Part shown: positions 32,799-55,965 of the stretch, in pieces | Layout of the letters: each line of letters starts with the position of its first letter | How positions within the stretch are numbered: the stretch's first letter is position 1 | NCBI RefSeq assembly: GCF_003610695.1 | Contig: NZ_RAQH01000002.1 | Location: 62,001-126,000 of the forward strand | Source of the DNA: Epilithonimonas arachidiradicis | GTDB taxonomy: Bacteria; Bacteroidota; Bacteroidia; Flavobacteriales; Weeksellaceae | Direction: 5' to 3' | DNA length: 64,000 nucleotides | Notes under the pieces: generated by a model | What the model saw: only the letters and a program-made list of their open reading frames with translations | The model's database searches: none | What the model was told of the DNA's origin: nothing | Translations under genes and position numbers: made by a program

Positions 32799-33488
32799 AT
32801 GAAATTAACTAAATTAAACATAGCTGCATTTTTCATCACGGGTTCACTTTTATTAACAAGTTGTGAAGCTGTTCAAAATGCTAATAATACACAAAAAGGT
32901 GCTGCGATTGGTACGGCTGCAGGAGCCGTATTAGGGGGTATCTTAGGTAATAATATCGGAAAGGGAGGTAATGCACCTCTTGGAGCAGTTCTAGGTGGCG
33001 TTGTTGGTGGTGTTGCTGGTGGTGTTATCGGTAACAAGATGGATAAGCAAGCTAAAGAAATCAAAGAAACTTTACCAGGCGCAGAAGTAGAGAGAGTTGG
33101 GGAAGGTATCAAAGTAACACTTCACGAGAATACGGTTAACTTTGATTTTAACTCATCTAATTTGACATCGCTGGCGAAAACAAACCTGGACAAATTGGTT
33201 ACGGTTCTTAAAAATAATCCTGATACCAATATCAACATCTACGGTCATACAGACAGTATTGGAACGGATGCTGTGAACCTGAGGATATCAGCCCAGAGAG
33301 CAGCAGCAGTTAAAAATTATTTTGTGGCGAACGGTATTTCTGCTTCAAGATTATTTACAGAAGGTTTAGGAAAATCTAGCCCGATTGCTTCTAACGATAC
33401 GGATGCAGGAAGAGCTCAAAACAGACGTGTAGAATTTGCAATTACTGCAAACGAAAAAATGATCAACGATGCTCAAAGTGGGAAATAA
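32799..33488 (+). CDS. OmpA-family lipoprotein
   Basis: A 229-residue lipoprotein with lipobox LTSC (residues 19-22). Residues 33-82 are a Gly-rich glycine-zipper region (GAAIGTAAGAVLGGILGNNIG, in part) typical of proteins that insert in or span membranes. The C-terminal OmpA domain (about 110-220) has the peptidoglycan-binding pattern NFDFNSSNL, INIYGHTDSIGTDAVNLRIS and RRVEFAI. It should tie the outer membrane to peptidoglycan. A terminator follows. Confidence 0.92.
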   Translation: MKLTKLNIAAFFITGSLLLTSCEAVQNANNTQKGAAIGTAAGAVLGGILGNNIGKGGNAPLGAVLGGVVGGVAGGVIGNKMDKQAKEIKETLPGAEVERVGEGIKVTLHENTVNFDFNSSNLTSLAKTNLDKLVTVLKNNPDTNINIYGHTDSIGTDAVNLRISAQRAAAVKNYFVANGISASRLFTEGLGKSSPIASNDTDAGRAQNRRVEFAITANEKMINDAQSGK

Positions 33489-33518: not shown

Positions 33519-33541
33519 AAACCGCAATTTGCGGTTTTTTT
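33519..33541 (+). terminator. Terminator after the OmpA-family gene
   Basis: Inverted repeat AAACCGC (33519-33525) and GCGGTTT (33531-33537) with a short loop and a T-run. It overlaps the TTTG box of the promoter that follows. Confidence 0.75.
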
Positions 33542-33559
33542 ATTTTAATGCTACTTTTG
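33528..33559 (+). promoter_or_regulatory. Flavobacterial promoter for the Dpr-like cluster
   Basis: TTTG at 33528-33531, 20 bases, then TACTTTTG at 33552-33559, a good match to TTTG-N19 to N21-TAnnTTTG. The start codon of the UbiA-type gene is at 33578. The upstream box lies inside the terminator hairpin of the previous gene. Confidence 0.6.
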
Positions 33560-33577
33560 TAGAATTATAGACATTGG

Positions 33578-34465
33578 ATGAAGAATTATTTAAAATTAAT
33601 AAGAGTAGAACAATGGGTTAAGAACTTATTTGTTTTTGCTCCGTTATTTTTTTCAGGTAAGATTACCAATACACATCTTTTTTACGAGAGTATTTTCGCA
33701 TTCTTAGTTTTCTCTTTTACAGCAAGTTCTATTTATATCATCAATGATTATTTTGATATTGAGTCAGATAAAAAGCATCCGGAAAAGAAACATCGCCCGT
33801 TGGCAAGTGGTGCTGTTTCTAAGACCAGTGCAAGGATTTTATTTGTATTATTGATTCTGTTGTCAGTCGGTTCCATTTTCCTTGGGAACTATATTTTTCA
33901 AACTAACTTTTGGAAGTTTGGAGTCATCATCGCATTTTATTTTGTGATGAATCTTTTCTATACATTCAAACTAAAACAAGTGGCGATTGTTGACATCTGC
34001 ATCATCGCCATTGGATTTGTTCTCAGAGTTTTAGCTGGCGGTTATGTGACAGGAGTTATCGTAACCAACTGGGCTATCTTATTAACCTTTGTACTGGCAC
34101 TTGTACTGGCAATTGGCAAAAGAAGAGGAGAATTAATCAATGCTCAGATTTCAGGAAAAACCAGAAAAGCTTTAGATGGTTATAATGTTCAGTTTGCGGA
34201 TATTGCTTTGTCAATCAGTTGTACTTTGGCAATTATTTGTTATCTGATGTTTACCTTGTCTCCGGAGGTTCAGGCGAGATTTCATCCGCGAGTGTTTTAT
34301 ACAGTGATTTTTGTGGTGTTTGCATTTCTAAGATATTTGCAGCAGACGTTGGTTTATAATAAAACAGAATCGCCAACCAAGATTGTTTATAAAGATCGAT
34401 ATATACAAGTGACCATTATCCTTTGGGTTATCGTTTTCCTTTTACAAATCTATTTTAAGAAATAA
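33578..34465 (+). CDS. UbiA-type polyprenyl-phosphate phosphoribosyltransferase
   Basis: A 295-residue membrane protein with about eight hydrophobic segments. The prenyl-diphosphate/Mg site is NDYFDIESDKKHPEKKHRP (N56, D57, D60, D64), and the second site lies near FKLKQVAIVDICIIAIGFVLRVLAGG (in part VDICIIAIGFVLR). This second motif and the KKHRPLASG start of the loop are typical of decaprenyl-phosphate phosphoribosyltransferase, which couples PRPP to a polyprenyl phosphate, rather than of quinone or heme prenyltransferases. The DprE1- and DprE2-like genes directly downstream support this reading. The lipid carrier and the final use of the sugar are not known here. Confidence 0.88.
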   Translation: MKNYLKLIRVEQWVKNLFVFAPLFFSGKITNTHLFYESIFAFLVFSFTASSIYIINDYFDIESDKKHPEKKHRPLASGAVSKTSARILFVLLILLSVGSIFLGNYIFQTNFWKFGVIIAFYFVMNLFYTFKLKQVAIVDICIIAIGFVLRVLAGGYVTGVIVTNWAILLTFVLALVLAIGKRRGELINAQISGKTRKALDGYNVQFADIALSISCTLAIICYLMFTLSPEVQARFHPRVFYTVIFVVFAFLRYLQQTLVYNKTESPTKIVYKDRYIQVTIILWVIVFLLQIYFKK

Positions 34466-34521
34466 ATCAAAGTATTAAAAGTTGAATGGATATATTCAAT
34501 TTTAAATAAATAAACCTAAAG

Positions 34522-35838
34522 ATGAAGCCGAATTTTGTACAGAAAGTAACCAACTGGGGAAATTTTCCAATCGTAGAGAAGGAAATGAAATCGGATGATT
34601 CTGTTTCTAAAATCAAACAATTTGTAAGAGAAAATAACGAAGTTATTGCTCGTGGAAACGGTCGTTGTTATGGTGATGCTTCTCTTGGAGAACATATTTT
34701 CTCTACAAAAAGATTGAATAAATTCATTTCTTTTGACAGACTTAACGGAATCATAGAATGCGAATCCGGCGTTCTTTTGTCAGAAGTTTTAGAAGTTTCA
34801 GTTCCACAAGGTTATTTTCTTTATGTGACACCTGGAACGAAATTCGTTTCTGTTGGAGGCGCCATTGCTTCAGACGTTCACGGGAAAAATCATCACGCAG
34901 AAGGTTGTTTTTCAGAATATGTCATTGAGTTTAAGTTATTGAATGAAAACTCAGAAGTGATTACTTGTTCCAGAGAAGAAAACTCAGATAAATTTTGGGC
35001 AACAATTGGCGGAATGGGTTTGACAGGAATTATTTTGTCAGCCAAATTTAAACTGAAAAATATAGAGTCGGCTTATATCAGACAAGAAAGTATCAAAGCT
35101 GAAAATCTTGATGAAGTTTTCAAATTGTTTGATGAAAGCGAAGATTGGACTTACAACGTTGCATGGATCGATTGTTTCCAAAAAGGCAGAAATCTGGGTC
35201 GTTCTATTTTGATGAGAGGTGAACACGCTTTGAAAGCAGAATTACCATCTAATCTTCAGAAGAAATCTTTGAAACTAAAAGAAAAATTCAAACCGACAGT
35301 TCCTTTTTATTTTCCCGGATTTGTTTTAAATACTTTGACGATTAAGATTTTCAATTTTCTTTATTACAATAAGCAAACAAAAAAACAGCTTAATAATTTT
35401 ATTGATTACGAAACTTTTTTCTACCCTTTGGATGTTATTAATGATTGGAACAAAATCTACGGTAAAAGTGGTTTTATTCAATACCAAATGGTAATTCCAA
35501 AAGAAAATGGAAAAGAAGGAATGAGACAAATTCTTGACGCCATTGCCAAAAGTGGGAATGGTTCTTTCTTAGCAGTTTTGAAATTATTTGGCAAAGATAA
35601 TCCGTTGGCGTACAATTCATTCCCGAAAGAAGGTTATACGTTGGCTTTAGATTTTAAAGTCAACAAAGGACTGAAAAAACTGGTTGACCAACTGGATACG
35701 ATTGTGGAAAAATTCGGAGGCAGAATTTATTTAACAAAAGACAGTATGAGCAAATCTTCTTTGACCAATTATCTTCAAAACGTTGATTCGTCCAAATTTG
35801 TTTCATTACAACATAAAAGAATTATCAATAACCATTAA
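34522..35838 (+). CDS. DprE1-like FAD-dependent oxidoreductase
   Basis: A 438-residue FAD-binding (PCMH-type) oxidase. Diagnostic segments are ARGNGRCYGDASL (43-55) and KFVSVGGAIASDVHGKNHH (108-125), the FAD-binding region that is nearly the same in mycobacterial DprE1; IGGMGLTGIILSAKFKL and LKLFGKDNPLAYNSFPKEGYTLALDF are also shared. DprE1 oxidises the C2' hydroxyl of polyprenyl-phosphoryl-ribose to the keto form, as the first half of epimerisation to arabinose. The protein is about 20 residues shorter than the mycobacterial one. Preceded by the UbiA-type gene and followed by the reductase gene 29 bases on. Confidence 0.88.
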   Translation: MKPNFVQKVTNWGNFPIVEKEMKSDDSVSKIKQFVRENNEVIARGNGRCYGDASLGEHIFSTKRLNKFISFDRLNGIIECESGVLLSEVLEVSVPQGYFLYVTPGTKFVSVGGAIASDVHGKNHHAEGCFSEYVIEFKLLNENSEVITCSREENSDKFWATIGGMGLTGIILSAKFKLKNIESAYIRQESIKAENLDEVFKLFDESEDWTYNVAWIDCFQKGRNLGRSILMRGEHALKAELPSNLQKKSLKLKEKFKPTVPFYFPGFVLNTLTIKIFNFLYYNKQTKKQLNNFIDYETFFYPLDVINDWNKIYGKSGFIQYQMVIPKENGKEGMRQILDAIAKSGNGSFLAVLKLFGKDNPLAYNSFPKEGYTLALDFKVNKGLKKLVDQLDTIVEKFGGRIYLTKDSMSKSSLTNYLQNVDSSKFVSLQHKRIINNH

Positions 35839-35867
35839 TAATTCATAACTAATAATTTATAATTCAT

Positions 35868-36593
35868 ATGATTGTTCTTGGTTCTAATTCCGAAGTTGCA
35901 CAGGCATTCGTAGAAGAATGTTTAGCGAAAGGAGAAAAATTTCCGATCGTTTATTTATTAAGTTCCAATCCGGAAACGACAGAGAAATTCGCAGGTCATC
36001 TTCAGGTTAAGTTTCTGCAAAATTCTGAAATTATTCCATTGGATTTAATGAATGAGATTGATTATAAGGCCTTAGAAAATATCAATTCAGATTTGTTGTT
36101 TTGTGCTTCCGGCTATCTTGGTTTAGGAACAGAAGAAGGTCTTTATGACGATGAAAATACGGCGCAAATTGTTGATGTTAATTACGCGAAATTAGTTCCT
36201 GTCCTCAACTTCTTTGCCAAAAAAATGGAATCCAAAAGAAGTGGGACTATGATCGTTTTATCTTCGGTTGCTGGTGAAAGAGGAAGACAAAGTAATTTCA
36301 TCTACGGAAGTGCAAAAGCCGGATTAACAGCTTATTTGAGTGGATTGAGAAATTATTTATTTGATAAAAAAGTTCATGTTTTAACCGTTAAACCAGGTTT
36401 TATGGAAACCAAAATGACAGAAGGTTTACCATTGAACCCGGCTTTGACAGCAACACCTAAAAAAGCAGCAACAGGAATTTATAAAGCCTATAAAAATAAA
36501 AAAGATGTTGCTTACGTTTTACCAGTTTGGGTCATCATTATGATGATCATCAGAAATATTCCTGAGTTTATCTTTAAAAAACTGAAGCTATAG
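35868..36593 (+). CDS. DprE2-like short-chain dehydrogenase
   Basis: A 241-residue SDR protein. The nucleotide loop is LGSNSEVAQAFVEE, the catalytic Ser is in IVLSSVAGERGRQSN (132-133), and Y146 and K150 form the YxxxK (IYGSAK). The run from LSSVAG to YGSAKAGL is close to mycobacterial DprE2, the NADH-dependent reductase that converts the 2'-keto intermediate to polyprenyl-phosphoryl-arabinose. The C-terminus has a hydrophobic segment (WVIIMMIIRNIPEFI) that may hold it at the membrane. It lies between the DprE1-like and phosphatase genes. Confidence 0.87.
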   Translation: MIVLGSNSEVAQAFVEECLAKGEKFPIVYLLSSNPETTEKFAGHLQVKFLQNSEIIPLDLMNEIDYKALENINSDLLFCASGYLGLGTEEGLYDDENTAQIVDVNYAKLVPVLNFFAKKMESKRSGTMIVLSSVAGERGRQSNFIYGSAKAGLTAYLSGLRNYLFDKKVHVLTVKPGFMETKMTEGLPLNPALTATPKKAATGIYKAYKNKKDVAYVLPVWVIIMMIIRNIPEFIFKKLKL

Positions 36594-36677
36594 TTGATGA
36601 TTGATAGATGATAATCGATTTGATTTCTATTAATGAAACAAAGCAAATAATCATTTATCATTCATAATTTATCACTT

Positions 36678-37265
36678 ATGAAGAAATTATATCTATTTGA
36701 TTTCGACGGAACCTTAACTTACAAAGACACCATGTTTTTGTTTTTGAAATTTTATGACCCTGCAAAATTTTCTGTCCAGTTTCTGAAACACATTCCACTT
36801 TTTATTTTACTAAAAATGAAATTGGCAGATGCGGAAGCTGTGAAGAAAAGTTTCATTGCATCCATTCTGAAAGGTCAATCCAGATATCAAATAGAAAAAA
36901 AAGCCCAGCAATTCTTTGAAGAAAACTATCCAAGTTTATTCAGAGAAAACGCTTTGGATTTCATCAATAATATCGATAGAGAGCATACAGAGTCTTATAT
37001 CGTTTCTGCATCGTTAGATGTTTGGGTAAAACCATTTGCTGAAAAACTCAATATGAAATTGCTCTCTACACAAGCAGAGTTTAAAGACGATATTTTTACC
37101 GGGAAATTTGTTGGAAAAAACTGTAATAAAGAGGAAAAAGCTAACAGAGTTAAAATCGAAATTGGAGACAAGAAATTTGATAAAATCATAGCTTTTGGAG
37201 ATACTTCCGGAGATAAAGCGATGTTCAAGTTCGCCAATGAATCACATTACCGATTTTTTCACTAA
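36678..37265 (+). CDS. HAD-IB family phosphatase
   Basis: A 195-residue HAD-superfamily hydrolase: catalytic D8 and D10 in LFDFDGTLTYKDT, the Thr/Ser motif IVSASLDVW, and the acidic motif AFGDTSGDKAMFKFA near the end. Length and the GKxxGxNCxxxEK-type stretch FVGKNCNKEEKANR fit the SerB-like HAD-IB group. Next to a phosphoribosyltransferase and DprE1/DprE2-like genes, it is the natural candidate for removing the 5-phosphate from polyprenyl-phosphoryl-5-phosphoribose; in mycobacteria a PAP2-type protein is proposed for that step. This role is inferred from position. Confidence 0.8.
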   Translation: MKKLYLFDFDGTLTYKDTMFLFLKFYDPAKFSVQFLKHIPLFILLKMKLADAEAVKKSFIASILKGQSRYQIEKKAQQFFEENYPSLFRENALDFINNIDREHTESYIVSASLDVWVKPFAEKLNMKLLSTQAEFKDDIFTGKFVGKNCNKEEKANRVKIEIGDKKFDKIIAFGDTSGDKAMFKFANESHYRFFH

Positions 37266-50521: not shown

Positions 50522-50735
50522 TTATTTTTTGATAGCTTTGAAAGTTTTAACGCTTCCGTCTTCCATTTTAAGGTTTACGATGTAAAGACCAGCTTTCAAG
50601 TTAGAAAGGTTAAGTTCTGTTGCAGGAGCAAGAGTTTTAACTTCTCTACCAGAGATATCATTTACAGAAACTGATCTAACACCTTTTACATCAGAGATAT
50701 TAAGAACATCTGTGAATGGGTTAGGGTAAACAGAA
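50522..50735 (-). repeat. Near-identical T9SS sorting-domain end, copy 1
   Basis: The last 214 bases of this gene are nearly identical with those of the next two (52269-52482 and 54055-54268), with only scattered single-base differences, whereas the parts before it differ strongly. Confidence 0.85.
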
Positions 50736-52126
50736 ACTCCTTTTTTATTTACATCAGAAACGGCCATAAATTCCTTATAATCAATAGTGTAATCTTCTAC
50801 CTGACCATTGATCATATTAGAACAAGCACTTTCAAGTGGCGTATTCAAAGTAGTCGCATTCGGAGATTGGAAGTTGTATTTGATTCTCATTGTTTTCTTT
50901 CCAATTGCCGTTCCTGCAGGAATAGTAATGTTTCCGTTTAAAGTTACTGGATTTGATGTGACAGATCCAACATAAAGCTTAGTTGCGAAAGTGTTGAAAT
51001 ATTGCTCACCCGCATCGTCAAAATCTCCATCATTGTTCCAGTCAACAAATACAGAAGCTGCCCATCCATTTGCTGCGCTACCGTTTGTTCCTCCTAATAC
51101 AGTTAATGGAACGCTTGTAACATTATTAAATACAGGGAATTCGATAGATTTGAAATCTTGGTGAACCGGATATGAACCGATTCCTGTTGCTGTTGCATCA
51201 GAAGGGTTTGTTACACCCGCAAACGTTACAGATTTAATCGGTGCGATTGCATTTGGAGCACTAGATGTAAGTGGACCACAGTGGCTTACTAAGCTATTTG
51301 TGCTAAAAGAAATCTCTTGACAACCTACTGCATCACCAACATCGTTAGATGAAACAATTTTTGCATAATATGTTGAATTAGTAGGTAAAGCTACGTTAAG
51401 TAAAGTTGAACTACCTATAACCGTAGTGTTTAATACATCCGAAGCACCAGAAGTAGTTCCAATTGTAATTTTGTAGCTAGCAGCATTTTCTACAGTTGGC
51501 CATGTAAGACCTACAGTACCTCCAGGGATCGTACTTCCGTTTGTTGGGTAAGTAAATGCTGTACAAGCAGGTACGCTAGTAGCTATATCTTGCTTTACAA
51601 TAAGGTCATCAATATAAAGAGCTCCACTAGTTCCAGTTGTGGCCTGTAACCAAGTACCTATACCATAAGACTTGTTTGGATCAAAAGTTCCAGCAGGAAT
51701 TGTTGCAGTAACAGTGTTACAAGAAGTTAAAGAAGCTGCAGACGTTAAGGCAACTCCATTACCTACAGGAAAAATAGACCAGCTTCCTTCTTCTTCATCG
51801 TATTCAGCATACATTACATACAAGGTACCAGTTAATCCAGCAGCTTTTTTATAACTAAAGCTTACATTGATTTTCTGACCATTGCCAGTCTGTCCATAAT
51901 AATCTGAAACTTCTGCAAGCTGTGCAAACCATCCAGATCTTGTTACTGATGTACTATAAGTAATAGCTCCGGATGTAGAAGCGCTACAGTAATTTACAGA
52001 ATTCAGAGAACCTCCTCCAAACTGTCCCATTCCGATCAAATCACCCTCAAAATTTTCTGTGAAGTCATACTGAGCATTGACCCCAATACCTAATGCCAAA
52101 AGGCAAGAGAATAGAATTTTTTTCAT
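50522..52126 (-). CDS. T9SS type A protein with GEVED domain (paralogue 1)
   Basis: A 534-residue secreted protein: signal peptide (MKKILFSCLLALGIGVNAQ), an N-terminal jelly-roll-like domain (YDFTENFEGDLIGMG to YIDDLIVKQDI, as in cleaved-adhesin domains), a fibronectin-like segment (PGGTVGLTWPTVENAASYKITIG), a GEVED domain (VFVDWNNDGDFDDAGEQYF to GQVEDYTIDY), and a type A sorting domain (VSVYPNPFTDVLNISDV). No enzyme motif. It is the first of three neighbouring paralogues of this plan. Each has its own terminator. Confidence 0.88.
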   Translation of the reverse strand: MKKILFSCLLALGIGVNAQYDFTENFEGDLIGMGQFGGGSLNSVNYCSASTSGAITYSTSVTRSGWFAQLAEVSDYYGQTGNGQKINVSFSYKKAAGLTGTLYVMYAEYDEEEGSWSIFPVGNGVALTSAASLTSCNTVTATIPAGTFDPNKSYGIGTWLQATTGTSGALYIDDLIVKQDIATSVPACTAFTYPTNGSTIPGGTVGLTWPTVENAASYKITIGTTSGASDVLNTTVIGSSTLLNVALPTNSTYYAKIVSSNDVGDAVGCQEISFSTNSLVSHCGPLTSSAPNAIAPIKSVTFAGVTNPSDATATGIGSYPVHQDFKSIEFPVFNNVTSVPLTVLGGTNGSAANGWAASVFVDWNNDGDFDDAGEQYFNTFATKLYVGSVTSNPVTLNGNITIPAGTAIGKKTMRIKYNFQSPNATTLNTPLESACSNMINGQVEDYTIDYKEFMAVSDVNKKGVSVYPNPFTDVLNISDVKGVRSVSVNDISGREVKTLAPATELNLSNLKAGLYIVNLKMEDGSVKTFKAIKK

Positions 52127-52220
52127 AATAATAAATTTTTTAAACTGATACGAATATAAAGCTTTTTTTCTTTTTGTAAAAAGATATTAACATTAAAATT
52201 GAGTTTTAGTTGTTAAAACA

Positions 52221-52248
52221 AAAAGCCTACTTATGCAAGTAGGCTTAA
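52221..52248 (-). terminator. Terminator after the second T9SS/GEVED gene
   Basis: Perfect 10-bp inverted repeat AAGCCTACTT (52223-52232) and its complement (52237-52246) with a 4-base loop and T on the minus strand side. Confidence 0.75.
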
Positions 52249-52268
52249 ATTAATAAAATTCTTAAGAA

Positions 52269-52482
52269 TTATTTTTTGATAGCTTTGAAAGTTTTAACGC
52301 TTCCGTCTTCCATTTTAAGATTTACGATGTAAAGACCAGCATTCAAGTTAGAAAAATTAAGTTCTGTTGCAGGAGCAAGAGTTTTAACTTCTCTACCAGT
52401 GATGTCACTTACGGAAACTGATTTAACACCTTTTACATCAGAGATGTTAAGTACATCTGTGAATGGGTTAGGGTAAACAGAG
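52269..52482 (-). repeat. Near-identical T9SS sorting-domain end, copy 2
   Basis: Second of three 214-base copies; differs from copy 1 by a small number of single bases, several of them silent. Confidence 0.85.
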
Positions 52483-53897
52483 ATACCATCCTTATTGATA
52501 TCATTCACAGCCAGATATTGTTTGTAATCAATGGTGTAGTCTTCGGCTTGGCCGTTACCTACGTCCGAGCAAGGGGTAGACAGGGCATTATGAATAACTG
52601 TTCCACAAAAATTATACTTTATTCTCATCCTTTTTTGACCAACAGAAACACCAGATGGAACAGTAATGTTGCCTGTAAATGTCGCAATATTTGAAGCGCT
52701 GACAGTTGTTGTTCTGTTCATAGTCGCAGTTGTATTAAAATATGATTCTCCTGCGTCGTCAAAATCGCCATCATTATTCCAATCAATGTATATGGTTGAA
52801 GCCCATCCGTTATTAGCAAGAGCGATTCCCTCTATGGTAAAAGGTATTGTAGTAAGGTTGTTATTAACAGCAAAAACTGTATTTACAAAGCTTTCGTGTG
52901 GATTAAAAGTACCAATAGTTGTAGCTGCATTATCAGATGTGTTGGTAATCCCATTGAAAGTTACAGACTTGATTGGAGCTGTTTGAGTAGGAGCTGTAGA
53001 TACCAATGGTCCACAATAAGGTGAGAAAGCGTTTGCTCCTGTTGTGAAAGTTGTTTCTGTACAGCCAGTAGCGCTTCCTAAACTATTTGTTGGAGTCACA
53101 CTAACGTAAAGAAGTGTATTTTGAGGAAAAGCTGTTGCTGCTGTAGGAGTATATGAATTAGTTGTTAATGTTGTTGATAAAACATCAGAAGCTCCGGCTG
53201 CAGTTCCTATTTTAAGTATATAAGCTTGTGCATTAGCTACATTTGGCCAGCTTAATGTTGATCTTACAGGAACATTAGTGGTTGCATTGGCTGGACTTGA
53301 CAGTATTGTGCATGAAGGGACAGCTGTAACCTGTTGTATTATAGATATATTGTCTAAAAATACGTAGTTGCCATTATTATTATTTGCACTTGTACTAGTA
53401 GCAGTAATTCTCAATCTAAAATCTCCTGTTATCAATCCCTCCGGTATAGTTGCTGTAATATTTTGGCAAGATGATGTAGCTCCATTATATGGAATAGTGG
53501 AAAGAGTTGTAAAGGTAGTTCCTGTTGCCGCAGTGGAATAAGCGATAATAATATTTCCAGTTAAGGCTCCAGTACTACCATTTGTGAGAGCGTCATCTAT
53601 CTGGTAGTCAAATTTGATGTCTATTTGTTTCCCATTTGCTGTTATAGCGGCAGGCTTAGTGTAAGTTAACGTTGCTGTTTTGGAGGCTGCTGTTGTAGTA
53701 AAAAGTAATACACCATAAGCATTGTCTGTTCCAGTACAGCCAGCATTAGTATAAATGCCACTATAGCTTGCTGGTGTATAACCTCCGGACCCTACCCAAG
53801 TAGAAGGAAGGGTTCCTTCAAAGTTCTCATTGACTGTAATTTGAGCGTTTGCCCCAATTCCAAATGCTATAAAGCACGATAGTAAAAATTTATTCAT
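52269..53897 (-). CDS. T9SS type A protein with GEVED domain (paralogue 2)
   Basis: A 542-residue secreted protein with the same plan as its neighbours: signal peptide (ending GIGANAQ), an N-terminal beta-sandwich (ITVNENFEGTLPSTWVG to VFLDNISIIQQ), a fibronectin-like segment (VPVRSTLSWPNVANAQAYILKIG), GEVED domain (IYIDWNNDGDFDDAGESYF to GQAEDYTIDY) and type A sorting domain. The N-terminal half is only loosely like that of paralogue 1. A TAGATTTG box on the minus strand (53921-53928) is a candidate -7 element. Function probably adhesive or structural. Confidence 0.88.
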   Translation of the reverse strand: MNKFLLSCFIAFGIGANAQITVNENFEGTLPSTWVGSGGYTPASYSGIYTNAGCTGTDNAYGVLLFTTTAASKTATLTYTKPAAITANGKQIDIKFDYQIDDALTNGSTGALTGNIIIAYSTAATGTTFTTLSTIPYNGATSSCQNITATIPEGLITGDFRLRITATSTSANNNNGNYVFLDNISIIQQVTAVPSCTILSSPANATTNVPVRSTLSWPNVANAQAYILKIGTAAGASDVLSTTLTTNSYTPTAATAFPQNTLLYVSVTPTNSLGSATGCTETTFTTGANAFSPYCGPLVSTAPTQTAPIKSVTFNGITNTSDNAATTIGTFNPHESFVNTVFAVNNNLTTIPFTIEGIALANNGWASTIYIDWNNDGDFDDAGESYFNTTATMNRTTTVSASNIATFTGNITVPSGVSVGQKRMRIKYNFCGTVIHNALSTPCSDVGNGQAEDYTIDYKQYLAVNDINKDGISVYPNPFTDVLNISDVKGVKSVSVSDITGREVKTLAPATELNFSNLNAGLYIVNLKMEDGSVKTFKAIKK

Positions 53898-54009
53898 AAT
53901 TATTAATTATTTAACGACAGCAAATCTAATAATAATTTTCAATTATTTAATAAATATCCAATTTATTTTAAAATAATTTATGGAATTAAGCATTTATGTG
54001 AGTATATAA

Positions 54010-54038
54010 AAAAAACCGCCTCTATTGAGACGGTTTAG
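54010..54038 (-). terminator. Terminator after the third T9SS/GEVED gene
   Basis: Hairpin AAACCGCCTC (54013-54022) and GAGACGGTTT (54027-54036), with one G-T pair, and a T-run on the minus strand. Confidence 0.7.
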
Positions 54039-54054
54039 ATTAAATAGATTACTA

Positions 54055-54268
54055 CTATTTTTTGATAGCTTTGAAAGTTTTAACGCTTCCGTCTTCCATT
54101 TTAAGATTTACGATGTAAAGACCAGCATTCAAGTTAGAAAGGTTAAGTTCTGTTGCAGGAGCAAGAGTTTTAACTTCTCTACCAGAGATGTCATTTATGG
54201 AAACTGATTTAACACCTTTTACATCAGAGATGTTAAGTACATCTGTGAATGGGTTAGGGTAAACAGAG
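54055..54268 (-). repeat. Near-identical T9SS sorting-domain end, copy 3
   Basis: Third 214-base copy. It is closer to copy 2 than to copy 1 (for example in the codons for the ISDV segment), and ends in TAG where the other two end in TAA. Confidence 0.85.
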
Positions 54269-55965
54269 ACGTCAGTTTTGTTAACATCGGATACAGCTAA
54301 TGTACCAGGAGCAACAACTTCTATTGTGTAATCTTCAGCTTGACCGTAAGCAGCAGTCGCAGGGTTAGTACAAGGATTTGCTATGTTGGCAATTGCAGTA
54401 GCTGAAGGTGTAGCTGCTGCATAGAAAGCTTTAACTCTCATACGTGTCTTGCCAAGAGTTGCAGTTGCAGGAACAGTTAATGCTTTAGTTTTAATACCAG
54501 TTGTTCCAGAGCCTGTGCTGGCATTGTTTGTAAAGAAGTTACCGCTAGTTGTGAAATAGCTCTCGCCGGCATCAGCAAAATCTCCATCTTTATTCCAGTC
54601 AACAAATACTGAGTAGTAGTGTGTAAATGCTCCTCCTGTATTAGAATTAACACTAATCTCTGTAGTTGTACCCTGCTCAACTTTAAATTCCTTAGTAATG
54701 AAAGCTTCATGAGCACTTGCTCCTGTTGCGGATGCAGATGATGTATTGGCAGTGTTATGTTTCATGTTAACATAACTAATAGGCTCTATTGTGGAATATG
54801 TCAATGGTCCACAATATGGTGCAAACGGATTGACTGCTGTAATATTATTAATAGCACATCCTGTAGCTGCCCCGTCTGCATTGATTGCAACAACTTGGAA
54901 GTAATATGATCCAGCCGTAACGTTGGTGATGTTTACAGCAGTATTGACAGTATTGCCTAACTTAGTAAGTGTAGTTGCAGAAGTCCCCCAATAAACATCA
55001 TAAGAAGTTGCGGTACCACCAGTTGTTGGAGCTGTCCAAGATAAAGGAACTGTACCAGTGCTAACATTAGATCCATTGGCAGGAGTAAGGTTTCCTACAC
55101 AGCCTGGAGGGTTTGCTGTCTTAGTAGTAAATGAAAATACAGAACATCCGGTGGCAGAACCCACATTATTTTTAGGAACAACTGACCAATAATAGGTTGT
55201 GTTTGATGCTAATGTAGTTGTCAATGTATAAGAAGTTCCAGTTGCATTAGCTAATAATGTCGTAGGTGTTGCTGTAGTTCCTAAATAGATATCATAAGAG
55301 TCAGCACCTGTAGCTGCTGCCCAATTAAGAACCGCTCCAGAAACTGCTACTCCAGTAGCAGCATTTGCAGGAGATGTTAATGTTGTACAACTTGGCGCAA
55401 CCGTTTCAGGTGATTTAACAACTACATCATCAATTGAGATGTAATCCATATCTGTTACATTATGATGTCTGAAGGCTACATAGATTGTTTGGCCTGCAAA
55501 ACTACTTACATCAAGAGTTCTGCTATACTGTCTTCCTAAGTTTTCCGGATCATCATATGTTTCGGTAAATTTAACAGGAGAAGCTAATAGCGCTGCAGTA
55601 GTATTAGAAGTACTAACGTACACAGAATAATTTTCTTTGTCCCATTCAAATGGGGCACATTTCACTTTCCAGTTCAAAGAAACAGTACCAGTTGCACTGG
55701 TAAGATTGATAGCAGGTGAAATGATCCAGTTGTCTGGTGTTAACGCAGACACCTGCCAAGATCTTGAGATCAATGAAACAGGAGTTGTAGGGTTACCATT
55801 TTCGTCTGGTACAACAAAGATGTCTGCCCAGTTTCTACCGTCACCATCAGCGTCAATACGCGTCCAGTCGGAAACATCTTCATCATCAAAATTATCCGAA
55901 AAATAAGTTTGAGCACTTACACACATACCAAGTGCAAGAAAACAAGGAAGTAAAAATTTTTTCAT
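54055..55965 (-). CDS. T9SS type A protein with GEVED and fibronectin domains (paralogue 3)
   Basis: A 636-residue secreted protein: signal peptide (ending GMCVSAQ), an N-terminal cleaved-adhesin-like domain (YFSDNFDDEDVSDWTRIDADGDG to DYISIDDVVVK), two fibronectin type III-like segments (VSGAVLNWAAATGADSYDIYLG and TVPLSWTAPTTGGTATSYDVYWG), a GEVED domain (VFVDWNKDGDFADAGESYF to GQAEDYTIEV) and the shared type A sorting domain. The extra fibronectin segment explains its greater length. A TAGATTTG box (55994-56001, minus strand) may be its -7 element. Confidence 0.88.
   Translation of the reverse strand: MKKFLLPCFLALGMCVSAQTYFSDNFDDEDVSDWTRIDADGDGRNWADIFVVPDENGNPTTPVSLISRSWQVSALTPDNWIISPAINLTSATGTVSLNWKVKCAPFEWDKENYSVYVSTSNTTAALLASPVKFTETYDDPENLGRQYSRTLDVSSFAGQTIYVAFRHHNVTDMDYISIDDVVVKSPETVAPSCTTLTSPANAATGVAVSGAVLNWAAATGADSYDIYLGTTATPTTLLANATGTSYTLTTTLASNTTYYWSVVPKNNVGSATGCSVFSFTTKTANPPGCVGNLTPANGSNVSTGTVPLSWTAPTTGGTATSYDVYWGTSATTLTKLGNTVNTAVNITNVTAGSYYFQVVAINADGAATGCAINNITAVNPFAPYCGPLTYSTIEPISYVNMKHNTANTSSASATGASAHEAFITKEFKVEQGTTTEISVNSNTGGAFTHYYSVFVDWNKDGDFADAGESYFTTSGNFFTNNASTGSGTTGIKTKALTVPATATLGKTRMRVKAFYAAATPSATAIANIANPCTNPATAAYGQAEDYTIEVVAPGTLAVSDVNKTDVSVYPNPFTDVLNISDVKGVKSVSINDISGREVKTLAPATELNLSNLNAGLYIVNLKMEDGSVKTFKAIKK

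Follow-up and report, generated by a model that had tools for sequence, protein, structure and literature searches.

A conserved four-gene module of Epilithonimonas arachidiradicis and other Weeksellaceae resembles the mycobacterial pathway to lipid-linked D-arabinofuranose

Introduction

Do four adjoining genes in the genome of Epilithonimonas arachidiradicis encode the synthesis of a lipid-linked D-arabinofuranose (D-Araf) donor, and which proteins would then flip and use it? The genes lie at positions 33578-37265 of a 64,000-bp stretch of contig NZ_RAQH01000002.1 (hereafter the window; the genome is 3.65 Mb and 99.95% complete), and their products are a UbiA-superfamily transferase, a DprE1-type FAD oxidase, a DprE2-type short-chain dehydrogenase/reductase (SDR) and a stand-alone HAD phosphatase. 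A preliminary description likened this module to the mycobacterial polyprenyl-phosphoryl-arabinose pathway and placed it in a Flavobacterium-like cell. Protein families, motifs and synteny support the likeness, as far as sequence can speak to it; its host belongs to the Weeksellaceae and is Epilithonimonas-like, outside Flavobacterium in the narrow sense.

We conclude that the four genes very probably make a lipid-linked D-Araf donor, which would be flipped and then used by a periplasmic GT-C glycosyltransferase on an envelope glycan. From the observed family assignments, active-site conservation, gene order, HAD/UbiA fusions and family-wide conservation, we infer the reactions, carrier, flippase, transferase and acceptor as follows. 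The UbiA protein would combine phosphoribosyl pyrophosphate (PRPP) with polyprenyl phosphate to give polyprenyl-P-ribose-5-P, from which the HAD protein would remove the 5'-phosphate, leaving polyprenyl-P-ribose. The DprE1-type enzyme would oxidise C2 to a keto sugar, and the DprE2-type enzyme would reduce that keto sugar with inversion to polyprenyl-P-D-arabinofuranose. Flipping would fall to a candidate GtrA protein encoded elsewhere in the genome, and a GT-C enzyme, likewise encoded elsewhere, would transfer arabinofuranose to the envelope glycan in the periplasm.

Results

The UbiA, DprE1-type and DprE2-type enzymes

The four open reading frames (ORFs) are all on the plus strand and are separated by 56, 29 and 84 bp (Table 1). 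They stand in the order first described, and every motif quoted for them then is present in the ORFs and their translations.

Table 1. Features of the module and of its upstream edge, with positions in the window.
Feature	Position	Strand	Evidence
UbiA-superfamily polyprenyl-phosphate phosphoribosyltransferase, predicted (PPPRS/DPPRS type), 295 aa	33578..34465	+	NCBIfam, PDB, motif
DprE1-type FAD oxidase, 438 aa	34522..35838	+	NCBIfam, PDB, active-site residues
DprE2-type SDR reductase, 241 aa	35868..36593	+	PDB, NCBIfam
Stand-alone HAD-IB phosphatase, proposed 5'-phosphoribose phosphatase, 195 aa	36678..37265	+	TIGR01490, HAD residues, fusion pattern
Terminator-like hairpin, separating the module from the OmpA-like gene upstream	33519..33537	+	
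Bacteroidota-type promoter-like match, TTTG-N20-TAnnTTTG	33528..33559	+	Inference; its end lies 18 bp upstream of the UbiA ATG

The UbiA protein scored 213 bits against NF008978, above the cut-off of 207, slightly below the cut-off of NF008977 (229.9 bits; 234) and below that of NF008976 (165 bits; 474). Its top four NCBIfam models were three for decaprenylphosphoryl-5-phosphoribose (DPPR) synthase (165-230 bits) and the 482-aa PRK08238 'UbiA family prenyltransferase' (187 bits), the next model reaching 67 bits, and its PDB matches were 8j8j/8j8k only, decaprenyl-phosphate phosphoribosyltransferase (best E 7.6e-38). The loop II motif NDxxDxxxD was present in 78 of 78 rows (the window, Mycobacterium tuberculosis and 76 loci) and was lacking from the genome's three further UbiA paralogues. 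Loop IV carried KR in the same 78 rows, followed three residues past the R by E in 46, including the window, and by D in 32. In a tree built by a quick method from 81 of 97 rows (15 Weeksellaceae rows and one duplicate having been dropped), the M. tuberculosis DPPR synthase (DPPRS) fell among the module-linked UbiA proteins, and the three own-genome paralogues lay outside on very long branches; both this tree and the DprE1 tree drew long-branch warnings and are used for broad placement only. The protein thus combines NDxxDxxxD, the R..E of loop IV, one curated cut-off passed and clustering with M. tuberculosis DPPRS, the sequence marks of a DPPRS or polyprenyl-phosphate phosphoribosyltransferase (PPPRS). 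It is by sequence a DPPR-synthase-type UbiA protein, for which PRPP-dependent transfer of ribose-5-phosphate is predicted.

For the flavoenzyme the best model was DprE1 (NF053785) at 397 bits, below the equivalog cut-off of 500, with the next model at 51 bits, and the match to the DprE1 structure 4aut had an E value of 6.3e-81. A FastTree phylogeny of 97 rows separated 92 in-group rows, mycobacterial 4aut among them, from five distant FAD oxidases (support 97). The preliminary description had named a placement of the UbiA and FAD genes outside the DPPR-synthase and DprE1 clades as evidence against it. Model ranking and the UbiA tree put the former inside its clade, and the lead of the DprE1 model does the same for the latter.

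In what we take to be the M. tuberculosis numbering, residues Y60, H132, K134, W230, Q334, Q336, K367, D389 and K418 of DprE1 are identical in the window protein; N385 is replaced by Thr and C387 by Ala. Among 12 positions compared in an alignment restricted to ORFs of 381-539 aa, nine were identical in 110 of 110 rows and a tenth in 101. Position 385 was Thr in 89 rows, Ser in 20 and Asn in one; position 387 was Ala in 102 of the 110 non-mycobacterial rows, Thr in seven, Ser in one and Cys in none. Cys387 is the residue attacked by benzothiazinones, making it a drug target, and is not known to be needed for the reaction. Because Ala, Thr or Ser occupies its position in all 110 rows, these proteins would be expected to be naturally insensitive to covalent DprE1 drugs.

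The best PDB match of the SDR was the DprE2-type reductase of 21gq (chain C, E 2.1e-26), followed by FabG-type enzymes (2.6e-9). It scored 149 bits against the DprE2 model NF053786 (equivalog cut-off 250), and its best NCBI model was PRK07102 'SDR family oxidoreductase' (234.5 bits; cut-off 267). The Tyr-Lys motif is kept, the gene is paired with DprE1 and the closest solved structure is DprE2. Since the equivalog cut-offs were missed, we call the two enzymes DprE1-type and DprE2-type and do not name them mycobacterial equivalogs.

The same missed cut-offs, together with the changes at N385 and C387, might mean that the specificity of the DprE1/E2-like pair has shifted and that the module yields another lipid-linked pentofuranose, either polyprenyl-P-ribofuranose or a non-arabinose epimer. 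There is a precedent in Citrobacter youngae O2, where another SDR, ORF13, determines xylofuranose (Kelly et al. 2024, PMC11127046; cited here and below from part of its text). Against such a shift stand the conserved catalytic residues of DprE1, the retention of both DprE1 and DprE2 even where the operon is broken (genome G023, below) and the report in the same source of DprE1/E2 homologues in systems with Araf-containing glycans. We therefore regard another pentofuranose as unlikely, and D-Araf as the expected product.

Gene order and distribution

Relatives of the window DprE1 were taken as the best 80 of 586, and 20-kb neighbourhoods were drawn from 35 of 73 matching non-Weeksellaceae genomes and from three Weeksellaceae genomes, where Weeksellaceae denotes the family group of the genome sample that we equated with that name. 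Loci ending at contig ends were scored as without the missing gene. The DprE1 ORF was missed in 6 of 118 loci (L082, L142, L177, L180, L181 and L183), which are absent from ORF-based counts and present in tblastn counts.

DprE1 was found in all 31 Weeksellaceae genomes examined (24 of 24 in one set that includes our own, once as a contig-end fragment, and the nine of a second set, which make 31 different genomes), and 29 of them have UbiA, DprE1 and DprE2 in this order within the stretch retrieved, the exceptions being the contig-end fragment and G023. Across 117 non-redundant loci, the full order UbiA-DprE1-DprE2-HAD occurred in 24 of 25 from Weeksellaceae and in 24 of 92 others, and a further 33 of those 92 had UbiA-DprE1-DprE2. 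Sequence comparison indicates that the four-gene order is old. Two variants of spacing were seen: about 570-680 bp separate the DprE1 and DprE2 matches in some genomes of the same genus (L009, L016, L019 and L021), against 29 bp in the window, and a 168-aa ORF lies between the two genes in L106.

In 15 genomes of other Flavobacteriales, the DprE1 search gave weak partial matches (25-29%) in seven and none in eight, and a sample of 395 Bacteroidota genomes held 82 with a DprE1 match at 1e-30, none of them from another family of the same order. At least two uncultured records named Flavobacteriales (L168 and L182) carry DprE1 among the best 80 of 586 relatives. Among the matches listed, the window DprE1 was 96% identical to that of an uncultured Chryseobacterium record, 94% to that of Epilithonimonas xixisoli and 91% to that of E. 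tenax.

Two loci bear on whether the genes act as a unit. In another genus of Weeksellaceae (L084), the UbiA and DprE1 genes share 4 bp, which is consistent with one transcript. In G023, a reduced genome of 2.0 Mb, the operon is split, with UbiA-DprE1 at about 1.45 Mb and DprE2-HAD at about 0.99 Mb, some 460 kb apart; all four proteins are nevertheless retained at 63-78% identity, as expected for genes that work together. By sight, its DprE2-HAD half is followed, after one 176-aa ORF, by an aminotransferase and a thioredoxin as in the window.

At the level of Pfam the four proteins are UbiA, FAD_binding_4, adh_short and HAD only, each from a large superfamily, as they would be if they were ordinary paralogues from some other pathway (quinone, lactone oxidation or fatty acid) that had become neighbours by chance. 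That explanation is highly improbable, as protein families, motifs and synteny all contradict it: specific models and PDB matches point to DPPRS, DprE1 and DprE2, the three own-genome UbiA paralogues without NDxxDxxxD lie far off in the tree, and the order is conserved across phyla. Best NCBIfam E values of 6.6e-33 to 1.2e-118, with the same order recurring across phyla, exclude a chance grouping.

Carriage of the module by phages was rejected, as DprE1 had no match in 50,697 phage records. The module is also plasmid-borne, and 64 plasmid records have a DprE1 relative. One of them, the 54-kb Flammeovirgaceae plasmid CP139022.1 (L215), carries UbiA, DprE1 and SDR genes of this type near a replication gene; its annotation gives 'decaprenyl-phosphate phosphoribosyltransferase' for UbiA, with three such genes.

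The phosphatase step

The HAD protein scored 114.6 bits against TIGR01490, above the cut-off of 98.3, and its PDB match was a weak, phosphoserine-phosphatase-like one (E 0.0086). Residues D8, D10, S112, K154, D175 and D179 did not vary across the 29 rows aligned (the window and 28 of 42 eligible HAD proteins). A HAD-UbiA fusion was present in 24 of the 92 non-Weeksellaceae loci and a separate HAD in 25; none had both, and neither was seen in 43. The fused form is an extended UbiA protein of more than 440 aa, with DxDGT within its first 40 residues in 20 of the 24 loci. This mutual exclusivity ties the HAD protein to the pathway as a phosphoribose phosphatase, and in C. youngae the HAD domain fused to PPPRS has been proven biochemically (PMC11127046). 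Both lines support the earlier suggestion that a HAD enzyme replaces the mycobacterial phosphatase. A profile of stand-alone HAD proteins matched 15 of 25 fused N-termini, with E values up to 3.4e-4 in a 25-sequence set containing one duplicate pair. An assignment as the putative 5'-phosphoribose phosphatase of the pathway is thus supported, with a weak sequence link to the fused HADs.

Candidate transferases

No ORF with three or more predicted spans, UbiA apart, lay within four ORFs either side of DprE1 in any of the 22 named Weeksellaceae loci, by a crude hydropathy count. The three-component arrangement, in which a flippase and a GT-C are encoded with the PPPRS, was absent from these 22 loci. 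Inspection of the neighbouring genes likewise confirmed that no arabinosyltransferase adjoins the module in the window, as had been stated. The wider search for GT-C enzymes then proposed did find candidates in the rest of the genome, none of them universal in the family: GT87 in 26 of 31 Weeksellaceae genomes, a TMEM260-like protein in 10 of 24 and PMT_2 in 2 of 9. On these counts we set aside the PMT_2 enzyme (C6 of this genome, 83 kb) and the TMEM260-like enzyme (C6, 4 kb) as partners, and GT87 as an obligatory partner.

GT87 includes mycobacterial GT-C enzymes such as PimE and AftC. As an addition to the proposed pathway, the donor might be used by the GT87 of a GT87-GT2-deacetylase-GT4 cluster (C10 of this genome, about 36.5-40.6 kb); besides its frequency in the family, a lower-scoring GT87 occurs in 3 of 15 other Flavobacteriales. 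DprE1 without a GT87 match is seen in four genomes of stated 99% completeness (G004, G013, G021 and G318), and the PgfS/ArnC-like polyprenyl-P sugar synthase next to the GT87 gene, which scored under both model cut-offs, may supply GT87 with a donor of its own. Use by this GT87 is accordingly a doubtful extension of the pathway. The cluster itself (L227:8635-13552) is conserved, with GT87, PgfS/ArnC-like GT2, polysaccharide deacetylase and GT4, and looks like a second lipid-linked-sugar system; it also holds a gene that we take to be dapD-like.

Outside the Weeksellaceae, a family of multi-span proteins of 525-579 aa with many invariant residues stands beside the module in 14 Bacteroidota loci, from Chitinophagaceae and related groups (e.g. 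L128:2377-3993, minus strand). Neither Pfam (three members scanned) nor NCBIfam (one scanned) gave a match, and the family is possibly the arabinofuranosyltransferase of those Bacteroidota and a candidate new GT-C family. It was set aside as the partner here after a four-sequence profile, with no positive control in the set, matched nothing in 39 of the window's relatives. A GT-C encoded near one half of the split operon of G023 (L252:16706-18217) weakly resembles a GT-C inside the module of Desulfamplus (L158; E 1e-6 among the loci collected, and 1.9e-5 in a small set). In other genomes the multi-span proteins near the module are diverse, 66 proteins falling into 46 clusters. These observations fit a constant donor whose transferase changes; it is equally possible that our searches overlooked a universal GT-C.

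A candidate flippase

GtrA was present exactly once per genome in 24 of 24 Weeksellaceae, against presence in 2 of 15 other Flavobacteriales. In other groups, GtrA-like small membrane proteins formed a 15-locus cluster, 12 of them encoded immediately 5' of DprE1 and in the same orientation, and the GtrA-like gene beside the module is annotated as GtrA in Ruegeria; a second cluster near the module comprised five small membrane proteins. Within a 27-protein set, our own GtrA matched six of the proteins from module loci, with a best E value of 2e-7, and left the two from other Flavobacteriales unmatched, a modest hint of a link to the module. The single, unlinked GtrA is the best candidate for the flippase. 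Its gene lies in an operon of GtrA, acyltransferase, major facilitator superfamily transporter and DUF3810 (L207:13181-16969; C13 of this genome), which is conserved in the five Weeksellaceae genomes read.

Sequence around the module

The upstream neighbour encodes an OmpA-type protein (32799-33488), and 49 bp downstream of HAD follow a class-V aminotransferase and a thioredoxin. The preliminary description had put the four genes behind one promoter. The hairpin parts the module from the upstream gene and a promoter-like match precedes UbiA (Table 1), which supports that picture only in part. Both promoter patterns occurred at near-chance frequency in the window. TTTG-N20-TAnnTTTG, which we take to be the Bacteroidota-type consensus, was observed 8 times against 5.9 expected, so that the position of the match, and not its frequency, is what suggests a promoter; sigma-70-like sites showed no excess over chance (16 observed, 17.1 expected). 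Elsewhere in the window, three adjoining minus-strand ORFs of 534-636 aa (50522-55965) have similar signal-peptide-like starts and are possibly paralogous secreted proteins.

Discussion

The transferase, oxidase and reductase families of the module are common to the mycobacterial and corynebacterial decaprenyl-phosphoryl-arabinose pathway (Rv3806c DPPRS, Rv3807c phosphatase, DprE1 and DprE2), judging from sequence, active sites and pairing. Unlike that pathway, the module has a HAD in place of the unrelated Rv3807c phosphatase, Ala at the Cys387 position of DprE1, no adjoining GT-C gene and a carrier that is presumably undecaprenyl.

D-arabinosylation of a pilin in Pseudomonas paraeruginosa was reportedly described by Harvey in 2011. 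Two Gram-negative systems invite comparison. The three-component systems of C. youngae O1 and O2 likewise use PPPRS and a HAD phosphoribose phosphatase to make polyprenyl-P-ribose, with optional epimerisation and periplasmic transfer by a GT-C (Kelly et al. 2024, PMC11127046). In C. youngae a single protein comprises HAD and PPPRS and acts with GT136, and a MATE flippase and the GT-C are encoded in the cluster, whereas here the HAD is separate and neither partner is linked. According to the same source, DprE1/E2 homologues occur in systems whose glycans contain Araf. In P. paraeruginosa PA7/Pa5196, D-arabinosylation of the type IV pilin also depends on D-Araf genes (PSPA7_6245-6251) that stand apart from the transferase gene, TfpW in the pilin locus (PMC12369383, from part of its text); those genes are in a genomic island and the acceptor is pilin, whereas the position here is chromosomal and conserved throughout the family.

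Several results weigh against a D-Araf pathway in the Weeksellaceae. Both the DprE1-type and the DprE2-type protein fall under the NCBI equivalog cut-offs, and phmmer with the window HAD alone found none of the fused HADs. The module has neither a glycosyltransferase nor a flippase as a neighbour in the window, no GT-C candidate is universal in the family, and the 14-locus membrane family did not turn up among the 39 relatives. GtrA could serve another lipid-linked sugar, because a PgfS/ArnC-like polyprenyl-P sugar synthase is encoded beside GT87. Among open-licence papers, none was found that names both DprE1 and Chryseobacterium, and a search for D-arabinofuranos- with Chryseobacterium gave nothing relevant by title and abstract start. 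More broadly, among the open-licence papers listed there was no report of the pathway or of D-arabinose in Weeksellaceae, and a term search of an article on Bacteroidota O-glycans (PMC12871550) found no pentose or arabinose term.

Synthesis of polyprenyl-P-ribose and polyprenyl-P-arabinose has already been published for Gram-negative bacteria. Given these precedents, we count the Weeksellaceae module as a new member of a described pathway type, a further case and not a new system. What is new here is the presence of DprE1 throughout the family (31 of 31), donor genes without an adjoining transferase or flippase, the co-occurring GtrA (24 of 24) and the lack of a universal GT-C among those tested. 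The fusion patterns argue for HAD proteins as the phosphatase step, and the absence of the benzothiazinone cysteine from the DprE1 relatives checked outside mycobacteria bears on the selectivity of benzothiazinones.

Our tentative view, which we hold to be possible and short of probable, is that the Weeksellaceae keep a fixed, donor-only D-Araf operon in their core genome that feeds different GT-C enzymes from species to species. D-Araf would then be present throughout in their envelope glycans, attached by GT-C enzymes whose role as arabinofuranosyltransferases has yet to be recognised, and the finding would be of higher interest if such a family-wide glycan exists. For the Chryseobacterium-like bacteria examined, the module predicts an envelope that contains D-arabinofuranose, which is known chiefly from the walls of mycobacteria.

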